Of a DNA stretch of 51,115 nt, positions 7,191-11,114 are shown piece by piece. Both the position numbers and the translations under genes were made by a program. Source of the DNA: Lachnospiraceae bacterium (lineage in GTDB: Bacteria > Bacillota > Clostridia > Lachnospirales > Lachnospiraceae); assembly GCA_014804385.1 (NCBI GenBank), contig JAAUZW010000004.1, positions 34,449-85,563 on the forward strand, read 5' to 3'. Below the pieces are notes generated by a model. It was not told the origin of the DNA, did not search any database, and worked only from the letters and a program-made list of their open reading frames with translations. The first letter of the stretch is position 1, and the number at the start of each line of letters is the position of its first letter.

Positions 7191-10100
7191 TCAGGCTTGC
7201 AACAAGTTCAAAACCAGATTGGCCTGCTGATTCGCCTGCGCAAGAATCGTCTGCGAAGACTGCATTAAAAACCTATTCATCGCATACTCCATTGATTCGG
7301 AAGCGATATCGGTATCGCGGATAGCAGATTCACTCGCCTGCGTATTTTCGATAACATTATTGTTACTATTGATGGTGTGTTCCAGTCTGTTCTGTATGGA
7401 ACCATAAGTGCTTCTCCGGGAACTTACCATAGTAATCGCCTCTTTAATACGACTAACCGCTTTTTCCGCATATTTTGGCCTGCTGATTGTAATGGAGTTG
7501 ATCGCAAGTGAGCAGGAATTGACGCGTGTACGGGGAATCTCAAACAGATCCTTTGTTTCCGCGCCGACCAGAAGGTAAATCGGTTCGCGGAAATTCCTGC
7601 CGCCTTCTTCCAAAAAGAGCGTGCTTCTTGCACTTCCACCGATATCAGTGATTGTATGAGCGCCCAAAGCTTTATGGGCAATTTTCAAGCTTCCATTCTC
7701 AATTGACGCAACCAAAGGCGCCGTATTGCCGTTGTCGTCCCCGTTTTCAAATTTATCATTCAGGAAATCGGCAAGCTCTTTTGCCGAATAATGCTTATTC
7801 GTCTCAAAAGTGTATTGATAAGGAGTATCGTCCGCGGTAAACGTGAGGACATTCTGTCCCTGCTTAAAAATAATACCTTTTGACACGTCTTTGCTTCCTG
7901 TGATATAAGTCGCCGTGGGATTGATCGTTGTCTTATAGAAAAGGAAGCCTGCCGCACTGCCGCGTACACCGTCCACCACATAGGTACCCGCCAAAGGTTC
8001 TTTTCCGTCCTTTTTTATTACTTTGATTTGAAGCGCCTTATCGTCAATGGCGCCAACAACATCTGTTTTCTCTCCACCGACAGAGACCATTATATCAACG
8101 TCTTCGATGTTTTCTTCCTTGAACTTTTCCTGTATTTTTTCCTGCAGGAGCGCGGCAATTTCATCGCCGGTATAAGTACCCTCGGGAATGGTTATCTTTA
8201 TAGTTGTTTCCTTATTCTCAACGTTGCCTGTATCCCCGTTTAGCTCTGGGTGAGTAAAATCAAAAATAAACTCGTCATTAGCGCCTTTTACGATCTCAAC
8301 AGGTTCCTCAGTCAGATCCTTACGGCCGATAATATAGGCCGGCCGAAAGTTCCCGTAGCTGCCTTGTGTTTTCGTCGCGTCTCCTGACCGCTCAGTAAAG
8401 AGTACATCGTTATAAAAACTGCCACTTAAAGAGATTTGTTGGGAAGCTGCAAACTCAAACCTTCCCTCCTCAAACCTGGATATCATATCGACGGTGACTT
8501 TACCTTTCAAATCGCTGTTACTGTCAATGGCCGTCTGTATCGCCTTTTGCAGCTCCTCCCTGCTGCTATACTCTTTTTCGGCAATTTTGACCGTGCCAGA
8601 GACCGCGTTATCGCCGCTGCCCAATGTCACGGTCAGCTCACTGTTACTGCTGGTCACCTTTGCCTTGTCGGAAACAGCGGTGCGAGTATCCACGATATAC
8701 TTACTTGCCTCCGTGATACTAGGATTATCAACCCTAGGTTCCGATTTGGCAATAGCATTCCAGGCAGAACCGTAGTAAAATCTAATATAGTACTCACCAG
8801 CCTCATTATCTGTCTTAGGCATGGCAGTCAGTTTAAACACATCATTCGACCCATCATTCTCATAAGAACATGTAATGCTGCTATAATATTCACCGTATAA
8901 CGATTTCAGTTGTTTATCGATCTGCGCAGCAATATCCGCCATACTGTAAGTCCCTGGGGACAGCGTAATGCTTTTTTGGCCGCCGGCCCAAGAAGGGGAT
9001 AAAAAAGTGATTGTATTCTTGCCACTCTCAATCTTTATCGAATCATTCCGATTGGCAGCGGGAATTGACGCAGTTGCAGTTGACTCTGTTGGCACTATTA
9101 ACGTGGTTCCTTCTGGTGTTGGCACCTTTCCAGGGCTATAGCTCTCGGTGTGAGTGTACGTATATGTTGTAGTGCCTTCAAATAGTTTTTTATAGGTATC
9201 GTTTTTCTGGGCGTCATCAAAACTGATTTTCTGGATGTCATCAGTCAGCCCACTAATGGTAATTCTGGAACTAGTGTCTAACCCAAACTTAATCTTACCC
9301 GCTAAATCAGAATTGCTATCTACGTATTCTTGCAGCTTGGTTAAAGTTTCACTGCTGCTTTTATCTCCGCCGAGACCGCTTATGGTATAGTTCTTATCGT
9401 TTACTTTGAAAGTCAAAGTATCGTCAGGCAGCGTAATTGTACCCGTTAACTTGGCCTTCCCCTGAACCTGCGCCATGTGTCCATTCTCTTTATACGGTAA
9501 ATAATTTGTTTCACAGAATATGGCGTTATAAGCTTTGCCATAATCCCCCGTCGTATCAAATTCTAAAGAGCTGTCTTTGCCTGTCAGCGTGGTGGATAAT
9601 ATCAAGTATTGCATACTATACGAAGTATATCCTGTGGACGAAGACGGCAAAGTCATGGACGTACTGCCAACTGTGGCTACTACTCCTTTGTCTTTAAGTT
9701 GCTTATTGATTTCGTCACGGATATCACTTATGGTATATCCACCGGCTTTCTCCTCAAAAGTAACTTCCGTATAATCATCTGCGCCGTTTATTTTAAAACG
9801 CAGGACATTATTATTATTGGCGCTGGATAAATGGATCTTATCAGTAGCCGAAGCATTATAGTAAGCCTTACCTGTGATAGAAGTAGGAATGGAATAAGAG
9901 GATCCGTATTGCATGTTATCATAAAAAACAGAAGAATACTTGATCGACGCACCTTGATCCAACTTAAACATATTCCCTTTCAGCCCGATAATACTCACCG
10001 AATTTCCACCCGTGATCTGGACGCAGGAATCTTCATACTCTTTTGCAACAATACCTGCTAACTCAGGGTAATTAGTCCGCAATTGATTATTTATTTCCTT

Positions 10101-11030
10101 GATTATATCAGAACGAGTGTATTTCCCCTCCGGGATTGTTATATCAATATAATTGGAACCTTTCTGGCTTTCCACATAAAATCCAAGCCGGTCGTTTTCG
10201 TTCTCTTTTATGGTCAACGGAAATCCCGCACTAAATACAGTGGTGCCCAGCAGACTGGCGGAAGAACTGCCATCATAACGGTCAAAAAGAAGATAGGAAA
10301 GAGACCCGTCCACCGAAGCTATTTCCGTAGGCATCCCGTCAGCGCTTTCAAAATTCAATTTACAAATACCCGTCTCCGTAAATTCAAATACGAACCCGGG
10401 GTTAGGCGGCTTCATCCTTTCCAACGCGCTGTCAATCTCATCAATTAATTCCCGCGTGGTATAAGTGCCGGCAGGAACCGTAAGCGTATAATCTTTCGGC
10501 TCATAAGAATCGGGGAGATGGATATTCAGCTCATTTTCCCAGGGCGTAATGGTATGGAGCTGTTCCTCATTCCACTTTCTGTTTCCGCAGATTTGATAAT
10601 AGGAGCTTTCATGCTCTTCAAATACGGGCTGCTCATTAAACTCTGTTTCTCTATTGATACGGTCTATTTCTGTACGAAGCTGGTTAAATTCGGCATTCAA
10701 GGCGGCACGGTCAGCCTCTGTACAGGTTCCGTTCAGAGATTTGAGGGCCAATTCATTCATACGCTGCAGCATACTATGTACTTCATCCATCGCCCCGTCA
10801 GCAACCTGTACGAAAGAGATACCTTCCTGTGCATTGACCGTCCCCTGTATAAGACCGCGAATCTGCCGCCGCATTTTTTCAGAAATCCCAAGTCCTGCCG
10901 CATCGTCTGCAGCCCTGTTAATCCGATATCCGGAAGACAACTTTTCAGTTGACCGCTTATTCGCCTTGGAATTTATTTTTAAAAAATGATCGGCGTTCAT
11001 AGCGAGCATATTATTGTGAATGGATAACAT
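7191..11030 (-). CDS. Giant flagellin (1279 aa): canonical N- and C-terminal flagellin domains with a roughly 1000-aa repetitive insert
   Basis: N-term MLSIHNNMLAMNADHFLKINSKANKRSTEKLSSGYRINRAADDAAGLGISEKMRRQIRGL; C-term ISRIKEAITMVSSRRSTYGSIQNRLEHTINSNNNVIENTQASESAIRDTDIASESMEYAMNRFLMQSSQTILAQANQQANLVLNLLQA. Confidence 0.95.
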   Translation of the reverse strand: MLSIHNNMLAMNADHFLKINSKANKRSTEKLSSGYRINRAADDAAGLGISEKMRRQIRGLIQGTVNAQEGISFVQVADGAMDEVHSMLQRMNELALKSLNGTCTEADRAALNAEFNQLRTEIDRINRETEFNEQPVFEEHESSYYQICGNRKWNEEQLHTITPWENELNIHLPDSYEPKDYTLTVPAGTYTTRELIDEIDSALERMKPPNPGFVFEFTETGICKLNFESADGMPTEIASVDGSLSYLLFDRYDGSSSASLLGTTVFSAGFPLTIKENENDRLGFYVESQKGSNYIDITIPEGKYTRSDIIKEINNQLRTNYPELAGIVAKEYEDSCVQITGGNSVSIIGLKGNMFKLDQGASIKYSSVFYDNMQYGSSYSIPTSITGKAYYNASATDKIHLSSANNNNVLRFKINGADDYTEVTFEEKAGGYTISDIRDEINKQLKDKGVVATVGSTSMTLPSSSTGYTSYSMQYLILSTTLTGKDSSLEFDTTGDYGKAYNAIFCETNYLPYKENGHMAQVQGKAKLTGTITLPDDTLTFKVNDKNYTISGLGGDKSSSETLTKLQEYVDSNSDLAGKIKFGLDTSSRITISGLTDDIQKISFDDAQKNDTYKKLFEGTTTYTYTHTESYSPGKVPTPEGTTLIVPTESTATASIPAANRNDSIKIESGKNTITFLSPSWAGGQKSITLSPGTYSMADIAAQIDKQLKSLYGEYYSSITCSYENDGSNDVFKLTAMPKTDNEAGEYYIRFYYGSAWNAIAKSEPRVDNPSITEASKYIVDTRTAVSDKAKVTSSNSELTVTLGSGDNAVSGTVKIAEKEYSSREELQKAIQTAIDSNSDLKGKVTVDMISRFEEGRFEFAASQQISLSGSFYNDVLFTERSGDATKTQGSYGNFRPAYIIGRKDLTEEPVEIVKGANDEFIFDFTHPELNGDTGNVENKETTIKITIPEGTYTGDEIAALLQEKIQEKFKEENIEDVDIMVSVGGEKTDVVGAIDDKALQIKVIKKDGKEPLAGTYVVDGVRGSAAGFLFYKTTINPTATYITGSKDVSKGIIFKQGQNVLTFTADDTPYQYTFETNKHYSAKELADFLNDKFENGDDNGNTAPLVASIENGSLKIAHKALGAHTITDIGGSARSTLFLEEGGRNFREPIYLLVGAETKDLFEIPRTRVNSCSLAINSITISRPKYAEKAVSRIKEAITMVSSRRSTYGSIQNRLEHTINSNNNVIENTQASESAIRDTDIASESMEYAMNRFLMQSSQTILAQANQQANLVLNLLQA

Positions 11031-11086: not shown

Positions 11087-11114
11087 TTATCGGCAGTTAT
11101 GGTCAATCACCTTA
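11087..11114 (-). promoter_or_regulatory. Sigma-D/FliA-type flagellar promoter upstream of the giant flagellin gene
   Basis: Minus strand TAAG-N16-GCCGATAA; -10 matches the GCCGATAA consensus exactly; about 57 nt upstream of the ATG. Confidence 0.75.

Follow-up and report, generated by a model that had tools for sequence, protein, structure and literature searches.

A giant flagellin of a Lachnospiraceae gut bacterium whose insert is a serial array of eight modules

The gene and its genomic setting

The window analysed here is a stretch of 51,115 nucleotides from a Lachnospiraceae bacterium (assembly GCA_014804385.1, contig JAAUZW010000004.1, positions 34,449 to 85,563 of the forward strand). 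A giant flagellin gene lies on its minus strand at 7191..11030, with the ATG at 11030 and the stop at 7191. The gene encodes 1279 aa laid out as Flagellin_N, an insert of about 1000 aa and Flagellin_C. The N-terminal D0/D1 core (aa 1-139; 10614..11030, minus) is matched by Flagellin_N, PF00669, at aa 4-139 (2.3e-40, 138 bits), and the C-terminal D1/D0 core (aa 1173-1279; 7194..7514, minus) by Flagellin_C, PF00700, at aa 1194-1277 (8e-20, 71 bits). Both are above the Pfam cut-off, and numerous solved flagellins match the same two ends. The first-pass annotation, whose coordinates are correct but which gave no strand, was right to read the protein as a giant flagellin with canonical ends, and both marks of a giant flagellin, a length above 1000 aa and an enlarged outer region, are present. 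The FlgL model TIGR02550 gives the protein 84 bits, under the 127-bit cut-off, and the genome has a separate FlgL-like gene. We regard the 1279-aa protein as a bona fide accessory flagellin, encoded by a gut member of the Lachnospiraceae.

Two classes of relatives, A and B, are described below. A conserved entry linker or strand with the pattern H-E-x-S-Y-Y-Q-I...W...QLH follows the N-terminal core (aa 140-159; 10554..10613, minus), and aa 140-163 have about 72 % mean pairwise identity in the class A alignment. D1 retains Q89, R90, L94 and E114, residues commonly cited for TLR5 binding, so the giant flagellin is not obviously immune-silent. Flagellins generally avoid cysteine; the class A proteins contain 3-13 cysteines each, and the one at aa 223, in module 1, is invariant in all ten.

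A site resembling a sigma-28-type promoter, TAAG-N16-GCCGATAA, lies at 11087..11114 on the minus strand, 57-84 bases upstream of the ATG. Allowing at most two mismatches, a sigma-28-like site, mostly TAAACTTTT...TCCGATAC, precedes eight of the ten class A genes; no recognisable site was found upstream in two class A relatives (G013 and G100) or in most of class B. The neighbours of the giant gene in the window are spoVA-type genes, a DUF3842 gene and an HTH regulator, with no adjoining flagellar genes. Contig C15 of the same genome carries FlgM, FlgN, two FlgK, FlgL, FliW, FliD and a 367-aa flagellin, and FlhA and FliS are encoded in the genome as well. The gene for this ordinary 367-aa flagellin adjoins fliS, with fliD, flgK/L and fliW nearby. 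Since secretion and assembly genes and an ordinary flagellin are present, export and assembly of the giant protein are plausible and it would be an additional flagellin.

The cluster on C15 has large members of its own: two neighbouring FlgK-type genes of 559 and 628 aa (L038:2984-6579), a large FlgL-type gene (592 aa) beside them, and an 820-aa FliD. On contig C20 of the same genome a 307-aa frame (L003:1345-2265) encodes a short flagellin-like protein with Flagellin_N, a weak Flagellin_C and an unusual charged C-terminus, ...KKKSHTALF.

Eight modules in the insert

The first-pass annotation quoted eight motif strings and claimed from them a serial array of one module. All eight strings are present, at aa 180, 294, 420, 539, 686, 812, 942 and 1071, with a spacing of 114-147 aa, and the array itself is borne out by profile methods. 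Plain self-BLAST of the insert finds no internal repeats whereas profile comparison is positive, so detection of these repeats needs profiles. When each unit is searched against the insert with phmmer, units 1, 2, 3, 5 and 7 are interlinked and 4 is linked with 6. HMM-HMM self-alignment, which had been proposed as a check, was run with hhalign on eight module profiles of 10 orthologs each. Of the 28 module pairs, 24 score above 27.1, the best of 56 reversed-profile null comparisons; the strongest pairs have probabilities of 97.8 and 97.6 %, and no module lacks a partner at more than 80 %.

A module HMM of 144 positions covers aa 153-1152 with exactly eight contiguous copies in all ten class A proteins (1259-1306-aa frames). 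It also finds about 10-12 copies, an approximate HMM-based count, in most complete class B proteins, none of which was used to build it; the suggested comparison of module number across relatives therefore gives eight throughout class A and more in class B. Searching the window's own genome with a 16-row module alignment (A3) returns only the same eight places up to E = 10. Modules at different positions share about 12-30 % identity. The gene has no DNA-level tandem repeat, so the duplications must be old.

The annotation had also likened the unit to the Flagellin_IN motif, a likeness that is weak in Pfam but stands by profile search. The proposed PF07196 search of the whole protein gives a sub-threshold match at aa 412-456, in module 3 (E 0.035, 14.7 bits against a cut-off of 22.7). 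Among 127 single modules 8 match, the best at E 4.6e-4, and 119 have no match at E <= 1. The modules are like Flagellin_IN in their GxYTxxEIxxxINxxL core and in these recurrent sub-threshold matches, but the Pfam model is a 55-position motif and the repeating unit here is a 100-140-aa domain. A profile of the 127 modules (A5) searched against all solved structures matches P. aeruginosa FliD (5fhy, 9e-4) and type-B flagellin (8erm, 1.7e-3), followed by the PBCV-1 penton protein (4e-3), adenovirus penton (0.03) and FliD 5h5t (0.15). Run on whole genomes from the order and the phylum, A5 detects 1-4 copies per protein, most of these proteins being 550-860 aa long, and the ten that were scanned with Pfam are all flagellins or FlgL-type, FliD or FlgK.

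The AlphaFold2 model of the insert, made from two sequences (the window's and that of the relative L078), is of low confidence (pLDDT 52, pTM 0.26). It repeats a strand-strand-helix-strand-strand pattern eight times, with helices at insert residues 47, 161, 289, 414, 552, 679, 810 and 938, about 114-138 residues apart. The top Foldseek match of this low-confidence model is the flagellar cap FliD (H. pylori FliD 6iwy, 1.6e-6; 9gsx, 5e-4). A single module, modelled separately as had been suggested (pLDDT 62.6), gave no significant fold match in Foldseek. From the profile homology to outer domains of FliC, FliD, FlgK and FlgL, and from the Foldseek match to FliD, we conclude that the module is a Flagellin_IN-type outer domain common to axial flagellar proteins, set here in a serial array.

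The viral matches deserve a separate word. The resemblance of A5 to the PBCV-1 penton P1v1 (8h2i) falls at the beta-strand-GxYT-helix core, and aa 291-322 of the window protein, in module 2, resemble the adenovirus penton base PF01686 (1.4e-5, slightly below the cut-off). This likeness between a flagellar outer domain and viral pentons may reflect a common local motif or convergence.

Relatives, module order and conservation

The insert is found in 21 of the 77 genomes of the window's genus (14 of 39 among those of good quality), and homologs occur in 8 of 297 further genera of the family, with one genome sampled per genus. One more case lies outside the family but within its order (G589, whose open frame is 1697 aa). 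A protein of this kind had been called notable for a gut-type Clostridium; the type of host was well guessed, the window being from Lachnospiraceae, but the protein is no one-off. Class A comprises ten full-length relatives of about 1255-1306 aa, colinear over their whole length and, within the genus, 43-57 % identical to the window protein. Class B proteins are mostly 1620-1909 aa long in the genus and 1520-1685 aa in other genera, and their insert matches that of class A at either end. In a tree built on D0/D1 alone, with the insert left out, SH-aLRT is 98 for class A, 82 for class B and 77, which is not strong, for A and B together apart from ordinary flagellins. A scan of genome contigs with the window protein gave no match. 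The contig scan with alignment A1 was dominated by the conserved D0/D1, with L078 the single named giant relative, and no homologs of the insert were found on viral contigs.

Compared between species, class A modules find their best match at the corresponding position in 695 of 720 cases, so all eight were in place before these species split and their order has not been shuffled since. The idea of a rapidly diversifying surface, put forward earlier, holds for the middle modules only; the array as a whole was not reshuffled. Mean pairwise identity within class A (all features on the minus strand) falls from 71.8 % in module 1 (aa 160-267; 10230..10553) through 48.3 % in module 2 (aa 268-393; 9852..10229), 40.8 % in module 3 (aa 394-530; 9441..9851) and 35.1 % in module 4 (aa 531-663; 9042..9440) to 30.3 %, the lowest of the eight, in module 5 (aa 664-788; 8667..9041). 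It then rises through 38.5 % in module 6 (aa 789-907; 8310..8666) and 50.0 % in module 7 (aa 908-1049; 7884..8309) to 65.2 % in module 8 (aa 1050-1152; 7575..7883). The values order themselves in nested pairs, {1,8} > {2,7} > {3,6} > {4,5}, and identity follows distance from the centre of the array with a Spearman coefficient of 0.98 (permutation p 0.0003). The same U-shape is seen in each of three separately aligned class B subgroups (rho 0.61, 0.88 and 0.91; p 0.02, 0.0006 and 0.0005). The first one or two class B modules resemble class A modules 1-2 and the last two resemble 7-8, and the middle ones do not map to class A positions.

A U-shape is what would be expected if modules 1 and 8 lay at the filament core and modules 4-5 at the tip of an arm that runs out and back. 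We believe the simplest reading is such an arm, resting on the core through modules 1 and 8, with modules 4 and 5 as its tip and its site of growth. The whole insert could also be a compact ball with conserved termini.

Several neighbours and relatives of these genes are worth recording. The class B giant of G006 (L027:5146-10227, plus strand) is broken by one in-frame stop; in its close relative G035 (L026) the gene is intact and encodes 1694 aa. A 1039-aa frame in G020 (L037:4296-7412) holds a large flagellin of about 1006 aa without these modules, so this group has evolved large flagellins more than once. In four relatives a protein of about 1000 aa with DUF6240 (PF19753) is encoded near the class A giant (L033:10992-13973, plus; L035:6214-9201, plus; L034:13365-16406, minus; L069:13921-17126, plus). 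The one at L069 is split over two frames, and one of the DUF6240 proteins has a weak match to the C-terminus of the hook-length protein FliK (0.0037). A search for DUF6240 in the window's own genome, run without a positive control, gave no match.

Proposed role and significance

The reading we prefer, at a probability of about 0.7, is that this is an accessory flagellin whose eight outer domains, in fixed order, form a thick, layered filament coat. Its gene would most likely be transcribed by sigma-28 alongside other late flagellar genes, and the protein would most likely leave the cell unfolded via the flagellar type III channel. The D0/D1 ends would polymerise into a normal filament core. 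The whole outer part would be an ordered chain of eight Flagellin_IN-type beta-beta-alpha-beta-beta domains, modules 1 to 4 running outward from the core and 5 to 8 returning. With 1 and 8 packed on D1 and 4-5 at the tip, such chains would give the thick coat. By making the filament stiffer or ridged, this coat probably helps the cell to swim in viscous mucus, and its variable outer face probably shields the conserved core.

The nearest competitor makes the giant protein a minor filament component or adhesin-like decoration, with a chain that mainly binds mucin, glycans or cells while the ordinary 367-aa flagellin drives motility. The place of that ordinary gene among flagellar genes, with the giant gene alone in its window, speaks for this, as does the concentration of variation in the middle modules, a pattern that would suit a surface in contact with partners or antibodies. 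However, the domain scan called no lectin, carbohydrate-binding or other adhesin family in the insert, and the modules are a generic outer domain of axial proteins; we consider this explanation unlikely, though deserving of some weight.

We give very little credence to the view that the resemblance is chance or compositional, the insert being one large non-modular domain in which a common beta-strand/helix motif mimics repeats. The low identity between positions would suit it, Pfam calls no repeated domain and no confident family at all in the insert of about 1000 aa, and the short motif also resembles viral penton proteins. A single non-modular domain is nevertheless refuted in the main by the profile-profile pairs that beat the reversed null, by contiguous tiling that extends to proteins outside the HMM training, and by the occurrence of the module as a 1-4-copy outer domain of other flagellar proteins; the predicted secondary structure recurs too. 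It is just as hard to believe that the gene is decaying, or that its array expanded recently through tandem duplication or recombination, with no function to keep it in place. The broken gene of G006 and the patchy occurrence within the genus could be read in that way, but all ten class A frames are intact, modules 1 and 8 are rich in invariant residues, and positional orthology is nearly complete. Recent tandem amplification of DNA is ruled out by the lack of DNA-level repeats.

Giant flagellins, thick filaments and duplicated outer domains are known from the literature. In the Oceanospirillales Bermanella and Oleibacter, Thomson et al. 2018 (PMC6248924) described giant flagellins with duplicated Domain-Extension (DE) regions; thick (>=30 nm) filaments were shown for these two only, and Eubacterium plexicaudatum was also named as a Firmicutes bearer of a giant flagellin. 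The first-pass annotation was right that such proteins are known from marine gamma-proteobacteria, but they are not confined to them. Compared by description, the Bermanella and Oleibacter proteins also exceed 1000 aa, keep canonical D0/D1 ends and enlarge the outer part by outer-domain duplication; they have two DE copies and a non-repetitive DX insert, whereas the insert here consists from end to end of 8 (to about 12) copies in a fixed order. Outer domains in mutual contact aid swimming in viscous media (PMC10256154; PMC8931119), as do ridged outer domains (PMC10256154). The D2/D3 outer domains of P. aeruginosa type-B flagellin and FliD are matched by our module profile, but these proteins, with the PAO1-type ridged filaments (PMC10256154), have one or few outer domains against eight or more here. 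The flagellins of PMC8931119, again compared by description, likewise have outer layers built of several domains, with effects on motility in gut and soil, but one to a few outer domains per subunit. In the open PMC literature we found no description of a lineage with 8 to about 12 copies tiling the insert in conserved order and with symmetric conservation.

We suggest tentatively, as a possibility we would not yet bet on, that a distinct lineage of Lachnospiraceae flagellins turned a single outer domain into an ordered arm of 8-12 domains running out and back, which lengthens at the distal tip while the core-proximal modules stay fixed. The filament coat would thereby have an adjustable thickness, and module number may be an evolvable ruler of filament diameter. 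For this one lineage the work speaks to the way in which a flagellin accommodates outer domains in tandem. Thomson et al. did not settle whether such domains fold contiguously or interleaved, or what purpose thick filaments serve (PMC6248924); each copy here has the look of an independent domain, and conservation is mirrored on the two sides of the array's centre, which is relevant to the former question. The natural series of 1, 8 and about 12 modules would allow outer-domain number to be tested against filament diameter and stiffness, and it may bear in the same way on swimming in mucus and on shielding of the TLR5-binding core in gut commensals.
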